Source of the DNA: Phytopythium helicoides
Lineage: Eukaryota; Oomycota; Peronosporomycetes; Pythiales; Pythiaceae
NCBI GenBank assembly: GCA_024867545.1
Contig: JANFNE010000007.1
Coordinates: 434,001-498,000, forward strand
DNA: 64,000 nt
Reading direction: 5' to 3'
Part shown: in pieces, positions 22,512 to 36,574 of the stretch
Layout: each line of letters begins with the position of its first letter
Numbering within the stretch: position 1 is the stretch's first letter
Made by a program: the position numbers and the translations under genes
Notes under the pieces: model-generated
The model's database searches: none
What the model saw: the letters and a program-made list of their open reading frames with translations, nothing else
Told to the model about the DNA's origin: nothing

Positions 22512-23840
22512 CAACACTTGCCATCCAGACGGCGAGACCACCCACATGCCTACTTGCGGCCGTTCACAACACCCGAGACGCAACCAACCTTGCGCGTCTT
22601 CCCGCCAGTGCTGCGCTTCAAGTAACACGCCGTGCGACCCGGGTTGTCGTTCACGAACGTGTACGCAACACACCCGCTCGTCTTGGTGCACGCATCACAG
22701 CAGTCAGACGGCTGCAGACCGTACTTGACCTCGAGGTCGTTGCCGTAGAAGTCCACGTCCGTGTACTGCGCCGAGCACTGCGAAGGGGTGGCGATGCACT
22801 GGTAGTACCACTGGTTCCACGGCTGGCAGTACGAGTTGCTGGGGCAACCCACCGTGCCGCTCGCATCGCCACACATGTCACCGATCTTGATGTAGGACGA
22901 GCTGTCGTCGTTGTCATTGTCGTTGCCGCGAACGGTACCGGAGACGGCACCCTTGAGCGTCTTCTTGCTTCCCTTGCCGCTCTTGAGGTAGCACGCAGAG
23001 TGACCGTCGGCGTTGTAGTTGACGTGCGTGAAGGCTTTGCAGTTGGTGGTGGCGTGGCAGCGGTCGCAGCAGTCACCGGGGAGGATGTCCTTGATGGTCT
23101 GGAGGTCGTCGCCGTAGTAGTCGACGCCGACCTCAATCTTGCACTGTTTGGGCGTGGCGACGCACTGGTAGTACCATGGGTTCCACGGTTGGCAGTAGGC
23201 TCCCTTCTCGCACTTGGACGCTCCCTTGACGTCGTTGCCGCAGTTGTCGCCGAGCTTGCCGGTCGTTGAAGTGGGAGTTGAGGTCGTTGAAGTCGGGGTC
23301 GAGGTTGTCGAAGTCGGAGTCGGAGTCGATGTCGTCGAAGTGAATGGAGGTGTCGGCGTAGGGGTAGCCGCCATCCCAGGAGTCGGCAAAGGAACGCAAG
23401 TGGTTGCCGTCGGCGTGGGCGTCGGAGTCGGGAACGTCACACCGTTGGTACAAGTGATGTTCGCCCATAGCTTCGGATCGGACATCAGCGAGGCGTTACT
23501 CGGGTGCGAGACGCCGATGGTCCAGCGAACGACCTTGTTCGTCGTAACATTGAACTCGCAGCACGGGTCTCCGAGTTCCTGGCCGTTGGTCTGTCCATCG
23601 CCATCCGAGTCGGCCATGCAGTATGCACGCGTCCATCCAGGACCATACTTGACGTAGTCCTTGCCAAACTGGTTTGCGCCGCCGCGTCCCGTCACATTGG
23701 GATGGCCAATGTTCGGGTAGTCCGTGACGTTACCGCCGTTCGGGATCAAGGTAGCCCAGCGACGATGGGCCACAACATCTCTGGTTGAAGCAAGTAGTGC
23801 GCCGATGACGCCTGTAACGAAGAGGATACCCGAGCGCATG
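22512..23840 (-). repeat. Duplicated unit, copy 1 (paired with 24736-26238)
   Basis: From about 22512 to about 23640 the sequence appears essentially base-for-base the same as 24736 to about 26040, apart from the longer repeat linker in copy 2. Beyond about 23640 (N-terminal codons) and upstream of the start codon the two copies differ clearly. The unit was judged by eye. Confidence 0.8.
22550..23839 (-). CDS. Secreted temptin-CBM1-PAN (CBEL-like) cellulose-binding protein, copy 1
   Basis: Single exon, 429 residues. Signal peptide MRSGILFVTGVIGALLAST. Residues about 25-130 form a temptin-type Cys domain (IPNGGNVTDYPNIGHPN, YCMADSDGDGQTNGQELGDP). A Thr/Pro/Ser linker follows. Then two tandem units occur, each a CBM1-like cellulose-binding motif (CEKGAYCQPWNPWYYQCV; CPSNSYCQPWNQWYYQCI) followed by a PAN/Apple module (DYYGDDLQTIKDILPGDCCD..., DFYGNDLEVKYGLQPSDCCD...). 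CBM1+PAN pairs define oomycete CBEL proteins, which bind cellulose and act in wall adhesion and plant responses. N-terminal temptin plus CBEL units is a less familiar combination. Most of the gene is nearly identical to the copy at 24776. Confidence 0.9.
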   Translation of the reverse strand: MRSGILFVTGVIGALLASTRDVVAHRRWATLIPNGGNVTDYPNIGHPNVTGRGGANQFGKDYVKYGPGWTRAYCMADSDGDGQTNGQELGDPCCEFNVTTNKVVRWTIGVSHPSNASLMSDPKLWANITCTNGVTFPTPTPTPTATTCVPLPTPGMAATPTPTPPFTSTTSTPTPTSTTSTPTSTTSTPTSTTGKLGDNCGNDVKGASKCEKGAYCQPWNPWYYQCVATPKQCKIEVGVDYYGDDLQTIKDILPGDCCDRCHATTNCKAFTHVNYNADGHSACYLKSGKGSKKTLKGAVSGTVRGNDNDNDDSSSYIKIGDMCGDASGTVGCPSNSYCQPWNQWYYQCIATPSQCSAQYTDVDFYGNDLEVKYGLQPSDCCDACTKTSGCVAYTFVNDNPGRTACYLKRSTGGKTRKVGCVSGVVNGRK

Positions 23841-24775
23841 GTTGCGAGTGGAGTGGAAGCTTGTGGGGCTGGACACTGGGCTACTTGCTCTGTGAATCAC
23901 AAGAGCAATTAGAAAATGGCCAAGCTGTTGGGAAGAACAGAGAGGCAGATATTGCTAGGCAGCATGGCCCATCGATGCATCAGCTCCAACTCATTGCATA
24001 CACTACCGAGGAAAGTGCTGTTGCACAGGCCGCAGTGAAGTAGTCTCCATTCAACAATGTCCTCCGAAATTCTGCAACTTGCAAGTTGAAGCTGGCGTCA
24101 AGTGAGTTGAGCCAAAATGAAGGATGCACACAGTTCGGTGGTCTAGTTCACTGCTCCGCTCATTTATCTTGGTTTTAGGATGGCGAAACAGCTCACTGCT
24201 AGACCGGAACTAAGTGATCCGTCCGGCCGAAGCGCGTGCCTTCCACCGAGCATATGATCATTGTTGAATTGGACACCAAGTGCATGAGGTGTGCCAACTT
24301 AATGAGCAAGCTAGATGGCGGTCACGTCTCACTGAGTAAGCAAGCAGATCAAGCGTTTCCGTTTGTGGACTTTCCATATCGACTCTCACTCGATACGTTG
24401 GTGCGACTGAAGACTGCGGCCTAAGGTCTCCATTAGTTGACAAGCATAAGATAAGCATTAACTTCAGGCCTTGTCGTTCGGCAGCAAGGAGGATTCCGAT
24501 GCAATGCATTGACTTCAGAAGAACATGAAAAGGTGTGTGCTGCATTAAGGTTATGAGGGGTGACACCGATGTATCGTCAGCCACGTGCTCCTAATCGGCC
24601 GTCCACCGGCCCAACCTAGAGGTAACCAGCTTGATCGATAGTCCAAGCTATTCGCCAGAGCATCATCCCCCAAAGTCCAACACAAAGCGTCCGCACTGAA
24701 GGCGATTCGTCAACGTCAGCCTTGCCAAGGTCAAAGCCAACACTTGCCATCCAGACGGCGAGACCACCCACATGC
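23840..24775. other. intergenic; diverged duplicate of the region 26240-26700
   Basis: About 940 bases between the tandem CBEL-like genes. Segments at 24080-24340 align with 26420-26690 (shared CAAGTGAG, GTGATC-GTCCGG, GGTCACGTCTCA words) but with many differences. They are therefore the old duplicated promoters, now much more diverged than the gene bodies. No coding feature seen. Confidence 0.5.
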
Positions 24776-26239
24776 CTACTTGCGGCCGTTCACAACACCC
24801 GAGACGCAACCAACCTTGCGCGTCTTCCCGCCAGTGCTGCGCTTCAAGTAACACGCCGTGCGACCCGGGTTGTCGTTCACGAACGTGTACGCAACACACC
24901 CGCTCGTCTTGGTGCACGCATCACAGCAGTCAGACGGCTGCAGACCGTACTTGACCTCGAGGTCGTTGCCGTAGAAGTCCACGTCCGTGTACTGCGCCGA
25001 GCACTGCGAAGGGGTGGCGATGCACTGGTAGTACCACTGGTTCCACGGCTGGCAGTACGAGTTGCTGGGGCAACCCACCGTGCCGCTCGCATCGCCACAC
25101 ATGTCACCGATCTTGATGTAGGACGAGCTGTCGTCGTTGTCATTGTCGTTGCCGCGAACGGTACCGGAGACGGCACCCTTGAGCGTCTTCTTGCTTCCCT
25201 TGCCGCTCTTGAGGTAGCACGCAGAGTGACCGTCGGCGTTGTAGTTGACGTGCGTGAAGGCTTTGCAGTTGGTGGTGGCGTGGCAGCGGTCGCAGCAGTC
25301 ACCGGGGAGGATGTCCTTGATGGTCTGGAGGTCGTCGCCGTAGTAGTCGACGCCGACCTCAATCTTGCACTGTTTGGGCGTGGCGACGCACTGGTAGTAC
25401 CATGGGTTCCACGGTTGGCAGTAGGCTCCCTTCTCGCACTTGGACGCTCCCTTGACGTCGTTGCCGCAGTTGTCGCCGAGCTTGCCGGTCGTTGAAGTGG
25501 GAGTTGAGGTCGTTGAAGTCGGGGTCGAGGTTGTCGAAGTCGGAGTCGGAGTCGATGTCGTCGAAGTCGGAGTCGAGGTCGTCGAAGTCGGGGTCGAGGT
25601 CGTCGAAGTCGGAGTCGAGGTCGTCGAAGTCGGAGTCGATGTCGTCGAAGTCGGAGTCGAGGTCGTCGAAGTCGGAGTCGATGTCGTCGAAGTCGGAGGC
25701 GAGGTCGTCGAAGTCGGAGTCGAGGTCGTCGAAGTCGGGGTCGAAGTCGGCGTGGACGTGGGAGCACGAGTCGTAGAAGAAGGAGTGGAGGTGGGGGTTG
25801 GTGTCGGCGTCGGCGTGGGCGTCGGAGTCGGGAACGTCACACCGTTGGTACAAGTGATGTTCGCCCATAGCTTCGGATCGGACATCAGCGAGGCGTTACT
25901 CGGGTGCGAGACGCCGATGGTCCAGCGAACGACCTTGTTCGTCGTAACATTGAACTCGCAGCACGGGTCTCCGAGTTCCTGGCCGTTGGTCTGTCCATCG
26001 CCATCCGAGTCGGCCATGCAGTATGCACGCGTCCATCCAGGACCATACTTGGCCCAGTCCTTGCCGAACTGGTTCTCTCCACCGCGTCCCGTCACATTAG
26101 GATGACCAAGGTTTGGGTAGTCCGTGACGTTACCGCCGTTCGGGATCATGGCGACGTATCGGCGCTTGGCTGCTACATCGCTGGTTGAAGCAAGTAGTGC
26201 GCCGATGACGCCTGCGACGAAGAGGATACCCGAGCGCAT
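24776..26239 (-). CDS. Secreted temptin-CBM1-PAN (CBEL-like) cellulose-binding protein, copy 2
   Basis: 487 residues from ATG 26239; an in-frame upstream ATG at 26266 would only lengthen the part before the signal peptide. Same order as copy 1: signal peptide, temptin domain, Thr/Ser/Pro linker, then two CBM1+PAN units. The linker is greatly expanded (repeats of TSTTSTP), adding about 60 residues. The N-terminal temptin part differs from copy 1 at several residues (RRYVAMIPNGG versus RRWATLIPNGG; ENQFGKDWAKYG versus ANQFGKDYVKYG), while the C-terminal two thirds are identical as far as I can see. Likely cell-wall or secreted adhesion role. Confidence 0.9.
   Translation of the reverse strand: MRSGILFVAGVIGALLASTSDVAAKRRYVAMIPNGGNVTDYPNLGHPNVTGRGGENQFGKDWAKYGPGWTRAYCMADSDGDGQTNGQELGDPCCEFNVTTNKVVRWTIGVSHPSNASLMSDPKLWANITCTNGVTFPTPTPTPTPTPTPTSTPSSTTRAPTSTPTSTPTSTTSTPTSTTSPPTSTTSTPTSTTSTPTSTTSTPTSTTSTPTSTTSTPTSTTSTPTSTTSTPTPTSTTSTPTSTTSTPTSTTGKLGDNCGNDVKGASKCEKGAYCQPWNPWYYQCVATPKQCKIEVGVDYYGDDLQTIKDILPGDCCDRCHATTNCKAFTHVNYNADGHSACYLKSGKGSKKTLKGAVSGTVRGNDNDNDDSSSYIKIGDMCGDASGTVGCPSNSYCQPWNQWYYQCIATPSQCSAQYTDVDFYGNDLEVKYGLQPSDCCDACTKTSGCVAYTFVNDNPGRTACYLKRSTGGKTRKVGCVSGVVNGRK
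25490..25800 (-). repeat. Coding tandem repeat (24-nt units, Thr/Ser/Pro linker)
   Basis: About 11-12 imperfect 24-nt units of the GTCGTCGAAGTCGGAGTCGA kind encode TSTTSTPT on the minus strand. Copy 1 of the gene has only about 3-4 units in the matching place (23265-23340). Variation in repeat number probably arose by slippage or unequal exchange and changes the linker length between the temptin and cellulose-binding parts. Confidence 0.85.
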
Positions 26240-26868
26240 AGTTGCGAGTCGAGTGGACGTTTGCAAGCTGGGAGACCGGGCTGCTGCGCTTGTGTACCTT
26301 GAGGGTAATTAGTGAGTGAGCAGGTGATCACCGCGATCACCGCGGGTACTTTGGAAGGTCCCTGAGGCAACATCCGTGAGTCGCTTGTCTTCTGTATACT
26401 ATCTTGGTCTCAACCATGTTGAAGCAGGTAGCAAGTGAGCCAAGCCGAAAAGATGTGCAAAGTCTGGTGGTCCAGCACAGCGAGACGCGTGCTCCTCTGG
26501 ACCACCACTACTGCCCATTTGCCTTGGCATTTCGAAGAAACTCATGACTGACCTGGAATGGAGTGATCTGTCCGGTCGAGGCACGTGGTGGTCTCCGAAC
26601 TCACCCGATCACTTTTCGATTTTGTAATTCGAACAGCAAGAGTATCATAGCGTTGCTAGCTGCCGGTCACGTCTCAACTCACTCGGCTGAGCGGACAGTG
26701 AAAAAGTTTATTTGCGTTCGCATAGCGGAACTGAGGCTTGGCTGCAACGCCAATTGGTCAGGGTCCACGTGCCAGCTGCCATATCGGCGGACTGCGCCAG
26801 CTCACAGCCCAACGGCAACAAAGATATATTCGCACGTGTGATCGCAATCGAGAAATTTGCTTGCTGCA
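26240..26868. other. intergenic; promoter side of CBEL-like copy 2
   Basis: About 630 bases. The half near the CBEL-like gene is partly homologous to 23900-24350. No gene seen. Confidence 0.45.
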
Positions 26869-32303: not shown

Positions 32304-33485
32304 TTACGGCCTTTTCTTACGTTCGTATCGATCAAGCATCGATGGATTTCCTGACACGCCGCCAGTGTGAACGTACATGAGCTCCCGTGGCTTGTCTCCT
32401 TGCCTCGATGCCCTCAACACCCGGTCAAGAACAGCTTGATCAGTGAATAACGAGTGCCACGCAAACGACCCGTAGATGATATCAATCTCTATACCCGTTT
32501 CCGCGAGCACTTGATGATACATGTCGAGCAGCGGCCACCACAGACGTCCAAATCGCGACTTTCTTGCGGGGTTCAGAATCGCCGGTCGTCTTCTCACGTT
32601 AATCGCTGGGCTTAAGGTCGCAACACGGTCTGCTGCAGCCAGCTGATCGAACTGAAGGCGCAAGTAGTCGCTGTCTCCCACGCATGGTACCGCAAAGACC
32701 TCCACGCTTGGCATCACGTGCTGCGCTAGGTAGAATGCTGTGGTGCCTGTGCCACACGGCAAGACGACCGCAAGCTCCGAATCTGAGATTTCAGCCTTCA
32801 CGAAGTCGTTAATCTCTTCGGCGAGTTTGGCGACACCGCAACGGGCCTCGGGGAATGCTCCACCTTGAGGAATGTAAAGACCCTTTTGATCACCATTGAA
32901 GGTGACGCCACTGGTCTTTAGTGCTCGGGAGAAATCTTGAGTGTCGACGAGTGTGTGATACTCTTCGGATGAGAGAGGGACATGGCGCATACCAAGTGCT
33001 TGAGCTGCCTCGAGGTTTCCTGCTGGTTGATTAGAGCTTGTGATGCTCAGCCCGCGGCTAAAGTACGTGAACGGGACGCGCTTGATACTCGCGAGCTGCG
33101 CGATAGCCAGCATGGCGTTGCTCTGCGCGCCTCCGAAGCTGTAGAGGTGCGCGTCTGCGCACATCCAGGGATTGAATCGGTCACTTCAGGCTCATGAGCT
33201 GCATCCCTATGCATGTTGCTGCCTGGAGCCCCACCCACCCTTGAAGAATTCGTCATCCTGCTGCACGAACCAGTAGAGCTTGCGCATCTGCGCGCCACTC
33301 CGTCAGCCTTTCTGCTCGAATATCTCCGCAACCACAGACCGCGAGACGCTGAAACTTGGCAGGCGCCTCCGCACCTTATTCCCTGCGAGGAACAGCGAGT
33401 CGTCGCGCTTGACGAACACGCGGCGGCCGCGGAATCGCGCGCGCGTCACGGGCGTCGGCAGCGCTCCCCACCGCGGCGCCGCCAT
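32304..33485 (-). CDS. PLP-dependent ACC deaminase / D-cysteine desulfhydrase family enzyme
   Basis: Exons (minus) 33485-33375, 33287-33239, 33154-32304 give 336 residues, the family's normal length. Landmarks: FVKRDDSLFLAGNKMRKLYW (PLP Lys in GNKxRKL, formed across intron 1), SFGGAQSNAMLAIAQLA (phosphate/cofactor binding GGxQSN), IPQGGAFPEARCG, VVLPCGTGTTAFYLAQ (Gly/Thr loop), and MYVHTGGVSGNPSML near the end. It probably deaminates or desulfurates a small amino acid such as 1-aminocyclopropane-1-carboxylate or D-cysteine; sequence alone does not separate these. If ACC is the substrate it could affect plant ethylene, but that is speculation. Confidence 0.88.
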
Positions 33486-33763: not shown

Positions 33764-36574
33764 ATGCGGCGCCTGAGCTCGCGAGGTATCGGCGCGCGTT
33801 TGGCGGAAATCGGCGCGGGGGTCGCGGAGTTCTGACGTTTAACGTGCAACAGCCGGCGGCAAGAACTTCTCCATCAAGAGCGAGGAGGACCTGGAGGAGC
33901 TCATGCAGACGCTGATCACGCAGATCCAGCTCAAGCTCAAGAACGAGCTGGCGCTGCGCGAGATCTTCATCCCGAACCCCAAGGCCGAGGCGCGCTGCAA
34001 CATCTTCGTCTCGGACAACTACGCCACCTGCCCCAAGCTGTGCGTCTTCCTACAGTGCGGCACGGGTGCGTCCCAGTGCTTGATCGGTTGTAGAGTTTCC
34101 CAACTGCTAACGCTGATAGCTTCCGATTGGCGCTCGCAGGCATGCAGCCGGGCATCTGGACGCGCACGATCCACCCCAAGACGGGCTTCCAAGGCTCCAT
34201 GATCCCGTACCTCAAGACAGCGGTGCAGGGCGGCTACGGCGTCGTCGTCATGAACCCAAGCTCCAACTACTGCACCGTCAACGGCCATCGCGCCAAGATC
34301 CTGCACTCGTCCACCCCAGAAGACCATGTTGCCTACGTGTGGAAAAACTACATTCTGCCAAATGCAGCACAGGAAATCAGCTTCATCGTCCACGACGGCG
34401 CAGGCGTCTTGCTCAAGACTTTCCTCGGTACTCTGGGAAATGCGGACCTCAGACGCGTTGGTGGCGTCGCCTTCATTGAGTCAGCGCACCAGATTTCATC
34501 GTCGGACAGCAACAATGTGCGAGCCGTTCTGCGCGATCGCGCCGTCAACTTCGAGGCGTCCACAGAGCCCATGTTCACCGAAATCGGCTCGTCAAGGGCC
34601 CGTTTGGGCTGTACGTCGCTCTCTGTCGGCCGGACGTCAGGAGAGGCGAACAACCGAGACTGGACGGTGCACTCCGTCCAGACGTCAGCGTTTGTGTTTC
34701 TCCAGTCGATCGCCAACGGTCTTGAAGAGTCATTGAAGGCCATCAAAGCCACGTTTCCCAACAAGCTGATCGTCACGATCAACCGAGCACGCCTGACTGG
34801 ACAGCCTTACAACAACCCGTACGCGATCATCCACTGCTCTGGCCAAAAGAAAGAGACGGTAGGCAACCACAAGCATACTATGGACCCAGAGTGGAATCAA
34901 ACGTTCTCATTCCCAGTAACGTCTAGCGAAGCGACTGTCATAATCATGGTCAAGGACAAGACTTTTCCCATCCACTCTACGCTTGGCCAAGTGGCTGTGA
35001 GCATGAGCGAGGTTGGCTTGAACCGCGCCGATCGCCGGTGGTTTTCTCTTCGAGATGAAAGAGTCGCGACCTCACACGGCAACGGTGAGGTTGAGCTTAC
35101 TCTGGAGTGGGTTCACGATACATTCGTCGCGCGGTCCGACTCGTTCATTCGCGGTAATCGTGCCCCAGGTGGAGATATGTCAAGCCAGCGATCGAACGGT
35201 GGCATGTCGTCCCGTGGAGGCGCCGCTGGAGGCGATGACAACTGCTGCTACCTCTGCAAGAACACCTTTGTTCTTCATCGCCGCAGATACTGTCGTATGT
35301 GCTTACGCCTCGTGTGTACCTCCTGCTCGGATCGTCTTTTCCTGCCCGGTTTCAGCGAGCCCAAGCGTGTGTGCTCCGGCTGTTGTGATTTGCAGATGAT
35401 GCTGCACAACAAACTTCCGCGTATGGGACCTGGCGCTGCAGCAGTCAAGGTTCCTTCAGAAGAAAAGATGGCCGAATACACTCAGCGTATGGAGGCGATG
35501 CGCGAGCGTGAGCTTGCCAAGGAGGCTGAGCGCCGGCCACTCACAATCGAAGACTTCGATCTCATGAAGGTGGTTGGACGTGGTGCTTTCGGCAAGGTGC
35601 TGCTCGTGCGGAAAAAGGAGGGCAAGAACGCTGGTCACATTTACGCCATGAAGATTCTGGTGAAGGCGCACATTATCAAGAACGACCAAATCGAAAACAC
35701 CAAGGCCGAGCAACATATTCTCAAGGAAATCAACCATCCGTTCGTCGTTCGGCTGCGATATGCATTCCAAAACTCGGAGAAGCTGTACCTGATTATGGAC
35801 TACTACCCGGGTGGTTCGATGTTCTACCACCTGCGCAAGTCAAAGCGCTTCACCGAGGAGCGCACGCGTCTGTATATGGCACAGCTCCTTACGGCACTGA
35901 TGCACTTGCACAGCAAGTCGATCGCGTACCGTGACTTGAAGCTAGAGAATATTTTGATGGACCCCAAGGGCAACATCGCGCTCACGGATTTTGGTCTTTC
36001 GAAGGAAGGCCAGTCGATTGAGGGTGCCATTCGTGCGTCGCAAGCGGATTCGGGCATGAAAACCATTTGTGGTACGGCCGAGTACATGGCGCCAGAACTT
36101 TTGCGCCATCAGCCGTACGGCAAGGTGGTTGACTGGTGGAGTTACGGCATTTTGCTGTACGAGATGCTCACGGGTCGCACACCATTTGTGGATCGCAACC
36201 GGCGGCAGATGTTCAAGAACATCATGCAGGCAGAGATTATCTACCCATCGCACATTTCCCCGACAGCACGGTCTCTTATCTCGAAGTTGCTGAACCGTGA
36301 CCCGGCTCGTCGTCTGGGCGGTGGACCGAACGGTGGGCGAGACATTATGGCGCACCCGTTCTTCGAGCCCATCGATTGGGATAAGCTGTTGCGCAAGGAA
36401 ATCCCTCCTCCGTTCGTGCCTGAAGTATCGAGCGTGGATGATATTACGAACGTGCCGGAGATGTTCCAGAATATGGCAGCTGTAGACTCGCCAGTCAACA
36501 AAAAGAACGGCGAAGGACACCATTTCGAGGACTTTTCCTATCAGGAGGACGGCTACATCATGCGCGCCAACTGA
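33764..36574 (+). CDS. Arb2/FAM172-like domain, C2, FYVE-like zinc finger and AGC kinase in one protein
   Basis: Exons 33764-33785, 33853-34065, 34140-36574 give 889 residues; the first exon is 22 nt. Residues about 10-270 match FAM172A/Arb2 proteins: LCVFLQCGTGMQPGIWTRTI, GYGVVVMNPSSNYC, PEDHVAYVWKNYILP; where relatives have HSYGG this protein has HDGAG, so the putative nucleophile is missing. A C2 domain follows at about 285-405 (LIVTINRARLTG, DPEWNQTFSF). A Cys finger at about 445-495 (CCYLCKN, RRRYCRMCLRLVCTSCS) is FYVE-like but lacks the usual RRHHCR. The kinase at about 549-820 is complete: GRGAFGKV, YAMKIL, YRDLKLEN, DFGLSKEG, KTICGTAEYMAPE. The C-tail has the AGC hydrophobic motif FEDFSY. 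Lipid-directed kinase signalling is inferred. Confidence 0.9.

Follow-up and report, generated by a model that had tools for sequence, protein, structure and literature searches.

A single spliced gene of the oomycete Phytopythium helicoides (GenBank assembly GCA_024867545.1, contig JANFNE010000007.1) encodes one chain of 889 residues, in which an Arb2 domain is followed by a C2 domain, a FYVE-like zinc finger and an AGC-type protein kinase. The gene occupies positions 33764..36574 on the + strand of the window, by which we mean the whole stretch of 64,000 nucleotides that was analysed (positions 434,001 to 498,000 of the contig), and all coordinates below refer to it. The chain possesses the catalytic motifs and three phosphosite positions of AGC kinases, and the order of its parts is conserved across oomycetes. 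The four-part join, noticed in a first-pass annotation made from the letters alone, is confirmed, while the interpretation attached to it is partly supported. We consider it fairly likely that the protein is an oomycete Arb2-AGC kinase acting in the style of Akt or of the novel protein kinases C (PKCs), in which the C2 domain and the finger would recruit the enzyme, the Arb2 domain would dock it, dimerise it or restrain it, and phosphorylation would activate it.

The gene comprises three coding exons (33764-33785, 33853-34065 and 34140-36574, the last including the stop codon) and two introns (33786-33852 and 34066-34139), both with GT-AG borders. Splicing at 33785/33853 and 34065/34140, exactly where the first-pass annotation had placed the junctions, yields an in-frame product whose stop codon ends at 36574. 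The ortholog P0002 matches the gene start and both junctions (MRRLSSRAGGKNFS; LCVFLQPGEGMQPG), and so does P0005, minus one alanine. Exon 3 lies within a single open frame of 826 codons, which covers most of the Arb2 domain and the whole C2 domain, finger and kinase.

All four domains named by the annotation were recovered above the Pfam cut-offs. The kinase domain (35549..36364, residues ~549-820, +) was matched by the Pkinase profile on residues 553-820 with 240 bits against a cut-off of 31.7, and its best sequence match among solved structures is AKT2. It exhibits the motifs GRGAFGKV, AMK, YRDLKLEN, DFG and APE, and an activation-loop phosphosite position at Thr720 (KTICGT, 36062..36064). 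The AGC C-terminal tail (36365..36571, +) contains a turn motif at S862 (DSPV) and, as had been announced, a hydrophobic motif, FEDFSY (S878). Neither the N-terminal PH domain expected of Akt/PKB nor the C1 domain expected of PKC was matched up to an E-value of 1, in searches whose HMMER filters can lose weak matches.

The Arb2 domain (33867..34714, residues ~13-270, +, interrupted by intron 2) was identified by the Pfam model PF22749 on residues 13-222 (83.1 bits, curated cut-off 26.8), while the sister model PF09757 remained below its threshold on the same protein (17.5 versus 26.6 bits). As the kinase filled the first fold search, a second model was built from an ortholog fragment lacking the kinase; it matches the Arb2 fold solved in Clr3 and Hda1. 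These matches come from a second look with VIA-align at the top 1000 of Foldseek, whose 50 listed rows were C2-bearing chains. The elbow motif is VHDGAG: where alpha/beta hydrolases carry their nucleophile serine, sequence alignments put Asp164 (34394..34396), and the HDGAG noted before is correct. Among 20 aligned rows the elbow residue is Asp in 17, Glu in two and Asn in one, and serine is retained in two of the nine rows of a paralog alignment (contigs C1 and C18). Two candidate histidines are missing from five and three of the 20 rows, respectively, and three rows from Saprolegniales have neither. The conserved Ser nucleophile and His of an active alpha/beta hydrolase are thus not found across the 20 rows, and the Arb2 part is probably a non-catalytic binding module, as had been suggested.

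The C2 domain (34760..35119, residues ~286-405, +) matches PF00168 on residues 288-382 (44.6 bits, cut-off 22), synaptotagmin by sequence, and Munc13 and other C2 domains by the fold of the ortholog model. Calcium-binding C2 domains use five aspartate sites. Only one of these aspartates is left in the aligned part: compared with synaptotagmin-1, SDPY is changed to NNPY and the Asp of VKD alone remains. The first calcium site falls outside the synaptotagmin-1 alignment, and residues 293-306 contain no acid at all; N304 and D351 are identical in 20 of 20 rows. The finger (35240..35392, residues 446-496, +) passes the FYVE model PF01363 narrowly (residues 446-495, 29.8 bits, cut-off 27.8) and matches RUFY1, EEA1 and Vps27 by sequence. 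Its eight zinc-binding cysteines can be read as C448, C451, C463, C466, C471, C474, C490 and C493. The FYVE motifs are defined as WxxD and R(R/K)HHCR (PMC10381902), and the finger does not have this combination, typical of binding to phosphatidylinositol 3-phosphate (PI3P). Trp is absent from residues 425-447 in all 20 rows, and the basic patch is indeed RRRYCRMC, i.e. RRRYCR in place of RRHHCR, with His instead of Tyr in six of the 20.

A protein search with residues 1-500, in which 7994 candidates were scored, returned at least 35 relatives. Among the 35 listed, 19 contain all four domains, and 16 are at least one domain short. Some of the latter are fragments or have sub-threshold matches; in P0028, for instance, the finger is visible by eye despite the lack of a FYVE match. 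The database name of P0006 joins C2, FYVE and kinase. The named sources include Phytophthora, Bremia, Hyaloperonospora, Pythium, Albugo, Saprolegnia, Thraustotheca and Aphanomyces, and therefore the layout probably arose before the main oomycete orders diverged. In line with the suggested restriction to this lineage, among the matches listed in three protein searches every one with an organism name is from an oomycete; absence outside oomycetes is not established by this, since the search relies on shared short words and several matches carry no organism. Arb2 is the fastest-changing folded part: compared with the Saprolegniales orthologs P0023, P0024, P0026 and P0028, it is 40-44% identical, against 70-72% for C2, 76-80% for the finger and 79-84% for the kinase. 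A search with the Arb2 alignment (7993 candidates scored) listed 13 matches, all near the C18 row, and is no test of free Arb2 in other stramenopiles. We also observed a protein of Pythium insidiosum (P0033, 621 residues) with PX, Arb2 and kinase matches and no C2 or FYVE match; its matched part is 83% identical to the gene under study, covering 26% of the query, and it may represent a genuine variant or result from wrongly joined gene models.

The four-part gene is not alone in its genome. Searching the 49-Mb assembly with PF22749 (9 candidates scored) revealed 8 Arb2 places, and the Arb2 domain of the C1 paralog used as a query recovered the same 8 as 10 matches (11 candidates scored); PF09757 gave no match, but it gave none in the control genomes either and is uninformative. 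At all 8 places, one frame of 696-1226 codons takes in at least the C-terminal part of Arb2 together with at least the beginning of an AGC kinase, and none of the 8 is a free Arb2 without a kinase in frame. The copies on C1 and C42 differ very little and their contigs share further near-identical pairs, so that they appear to be one gene present on two haplotypes, which brings the 8 places down to seven genes. Apart from the gene under study, domain matches indicate Arb2-FYVE-AGC on C1/C42 and at C68:77k, Arb2-AGC on C32, C5 and C18, and a long protein on C39 with a sub-threshold PH match (23.9 versus 25.1) ahead of Arb2-AGC. At C68:77k the Arb2 match crosses an in-frame stop, the portion in the kinase frame scores 23.1 against the cut-off of 26.8, and the remainder appears to come from an open piece upstream. 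These gene counts are lower bounds, as introns and candidate limits may hide copies. When the listed FYVE matches (at least 147, from the best 150 of 224 candidates) and kinase matches (at least 137, from 126 of 959 candidates) were compared by eye, three distinct genes with both in the same frame were found, and all three are Arb2 kinases. Near-identical pairs of kinase or FYVE matches were seen on C1/C42, C57/C90, C6/C20, C7/C77 and C23/C68, as if both haplotypes had been partly assembled.

The kinase tree places six of the seven Arb2 genes in one clade (support 97/90, and 100/99 in a smaller set), and the Arb2 label requires 2 changes versus a mean of 7.2 in shuffled trees, with 0 of 500 shuffles as low. 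A single clade of all 8 Arb2 rows was rejected in the presence of 20 other AGC rows, where C18 falls outside (approximately unbiased test, p 0.036 against). With six of those 20 rows kept and nine orthologs added, C18 grouped with the other Arb2 rows at support 41/0. A single origin that includes C18 depends on the choice of rows and is unsettled. On the smaller-set tree the finger requires 3 changes, and a single gain is not resolved. We tentatively put forward a broader scenario, which we regard as possible rather than probable: Arb2 may have been wholly taken over for kinase control in oomycetes, starting from an ancestral Arb2-AGC kinase that predated the split of Saprolegniales and Peronosporales. 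It would have given rise to a family of about seven members that kept Arb2 and kinase as their two ends, added or dropped membrane modules (the finger, C2 plus finger or PH-like) ahead of these ends or in the middle, and mostly lost the hydrolase serine; the gene under study would be its four-part branch and a counterpart of the novel PKCs put together independently.

As to the mechanism, the kinase may work like Akt, S6K or a novel PKC. The C2 domain and the finger would carry it to a membrane or to a membrane-bound partner, a PDK1-like kinase would phosphorylate T720, and S862 and S878, once phosphorylated, would keep the active form stable. The Arb2 part, as a non-catalytic alpha/beta-hydrolase-like domain, could dock to a partner, dimerise, or restrain the kinase until the front end is engaged. 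Several observations weigh against this picture. With neither WxxD nor a complete R(R/K)HHCR in the finger, and a single calcium-site aspartate kept in the aligned part of the C2 domain, switching by PI3P or Ca2+ finds no support in the sequence; of the lipid-switched kinase proposed in the first-pass annotation, the membrane recruitment through C2 and finger is plausible, whereas the switch is not backed by the residues. In the full-length model the kinase is predicted with poor confidence (10-residue means of 35-92), and the superposition on PKC-beta gives a root-mean-square deviation of 14-30 and a TM-score to the query of ~0.25; in this model the PKC-beta match is one of domain order only and not of shared arrangement. 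PsZFPK1, one of five FYVE-AGC kinases (PsZFPK1-5) described in P. sojae in 2023, resembled free green fluorescent protein (GFP) when fused to it: whether the finger was present or not, the signal was cytoplasmic and most intense in the nucleus (PMC10381902), an argument against membrane recruitment in a relative. Finally, nine Arb2 columns are invariant across nine diverse rows, and together with the elbow Asp in most rows they make ligand binding or unusual catalysis by Arb2 possible.

The last point leads to an alternative in which Arb2 is an active hydrolase with Asp164 as nucleophile and the protein a bifunctional enzyme. Some alpha/beta hydrolases, e.g. haloalkane dehalogenases, do have an Asp nucleophile at the elbow, and apart from the prevalence of Asp one could invoke the serine kept by C1 and C18. 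The Glu and Asn substitutions in three of 20 rows, the loss of the two candidate histidines in five and three of the 20, including that of both in three Saprolegniales rows, and the absence of a triad from the solved Arb2 structures make it very improbable. Less credible still is that two adjacent genes were fused by annotation. Seven of the 35 listed relatives (P0001, P0003, P0004, P0008, P0010, P0011 and P0031) do have Arb2 and C2 with no kinase match, as this would predict; two separate genes are nevertheless rejected on account of the single open frame of exon 3, running from Arb2 to the kinase tail, and of the orthologs, and the presence of all four domains in one protein in the 19 complete relatives means that the join is not an artefact of a single gene model.

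Better placed, though in our opinion still unlikely, is a role in chromatin or small-RNA processes, where, by analogy with Hda1 or FAM172A, Arb2 would bind RNA polymerase II, nucleosomes or Argonaute and carry the kinase there. The Arb2 domain of Hda1 is required for binding to active genes and for interaction with polymerase II (PMC6753149), FAM172A, with its large Arb2 domain, binds AGO2 (PMC10205598), and a survey of the P. infestans kinome lists Arb2 under chromatin association (PMC3019232). The nuclear GFP-PsZFPK1 signal could be added, though the empty GFP control behaved alike (PMC10381902). On the other hand, C2 and a FYVE-like finger in the same protein are membrane-type modules, and Arb2 is its least conserved folded part. 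In addition, a nuclear localisation signal interrupts the Arb2 domain of FAM172A (PMC10205598), while no long insert is seen here relative to eight family rows, FAM172A not being among them. We retain the Akt- or novel PKC-like kinase as the preferred reading.

Just upstream of the gene, in divergent orientation, lies an open frame (32304-33185, -) that we take to resemble 1-aminocyclopropane-1-carboxylate deaminase / D-cysteine desulfhydrase. Further away, two adjacent and very similar open frames (22550-23896 and 24776-26308, -) encode a cysteine-rich protein and differ mainly in a 21-bp tandem repeat of a Thr/Pro/Ser-rich linker, present in 3.0 versus 12.2 copies.

The Arb2-AGC join itself is already known from Phytophthora; what is added here is that it belongs to a small family, with seven genes found in this genome, and the genome-wide linkage of Arb2 to kinases is more interesting than the single four-part gene. 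AGC kinases are classic drug targets. For the Arb2-AGC group, the named matches listed come from oomycetes only. If Arb2 controls the kinase, it would offer a control surface that plant and animal kinases were not seen to have, and a domain of histone deacetylases and of a small-RNA factor would prove able to regulate a kinase.

The first-pass annotation knew of no kinase with an N-terminal Arb2 domain, but one had been reported in 2010: the AGC kinase PITG_06776 of P. infestans, whose N-terminal Arb2 was said to be borne by no other known kinase; P. ramorum, P. sojae and H. arabidopsidis have orthologs of it, and it was reported as absent from diatoms, ciliates and apicomplexans (PMC3019232). 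The same study counts two AGC kinases with Arb2, one with C2 and two with FYVE, and the legend of its Figure 2 presents six proteins for novel domains, Arb2 included, with FYVE on PITG_01365; that PITG_01365 is also the Arb2 example there is a guess of ours. Like PITG_06776, the gene under study encodes a single chain with Arb2 ahead of an AGC kinase, and it differs from PITG_06776 by description, since the available text of PMC3019232 names no C2 or FYVE on that protein. PITG_06776, compared here by its description, may be the ortholog of our gene or of an Arb2-FYVE paralog. The four-part order itself was not found in a literature search of openly licensed papers. With PsZFPK1-5 the gene shares a FYVE-type finger ahead of an AGC kinase, and PsZFPK1 is reported to need its N-terminal region (residues 2-321), finger, kinase and T602 (PMC10381902). 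The word 'Arb2' is absent from the main text of that paper in a word search, and the available part of PMC8233823 on P. sojae FYVE proteins does not mention it. PsZFPK4 (PHYSODRAFT_360424, our P0053) nevertheless has an Arb2 match of 102 bits together with FYVE and kinase matches, so at least one published 'FYVE kinase' is recast as an Arb2 kinase; unlike our gene, it has no C2 match. Orthology to PsZFPK1 by the motif RRIPCS was tried and dropped: a longer pattern gave 0 matches and a shorter one 33, versus 12 in the reversed control, and the two of the 33 that were inspected (C57 and C90) are located in stop-broken frames, ~2 kb downstream of a kinase match.

Among better-known enzymes, the novel PKCs have a C2 domain, a zinc finger, an AGC kinase and turn and hydrophobic motifs in that order, as does the protein described here, while its kinase is closest in sequence to AKT2. 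It differs from the animal novel PKCs and Akt by having no C1 or PH match, an Arb2 domain in front and a FYVE-like finger in place of C1. Its Arb2 domain, judged from the ortholog model, has the same fold as those of Clr3 and Hda1; there, however, Arb2 is attached to histone deacetylases, and in FAM172A it occurs without a kinase, whereas here it is borne by a kinase.
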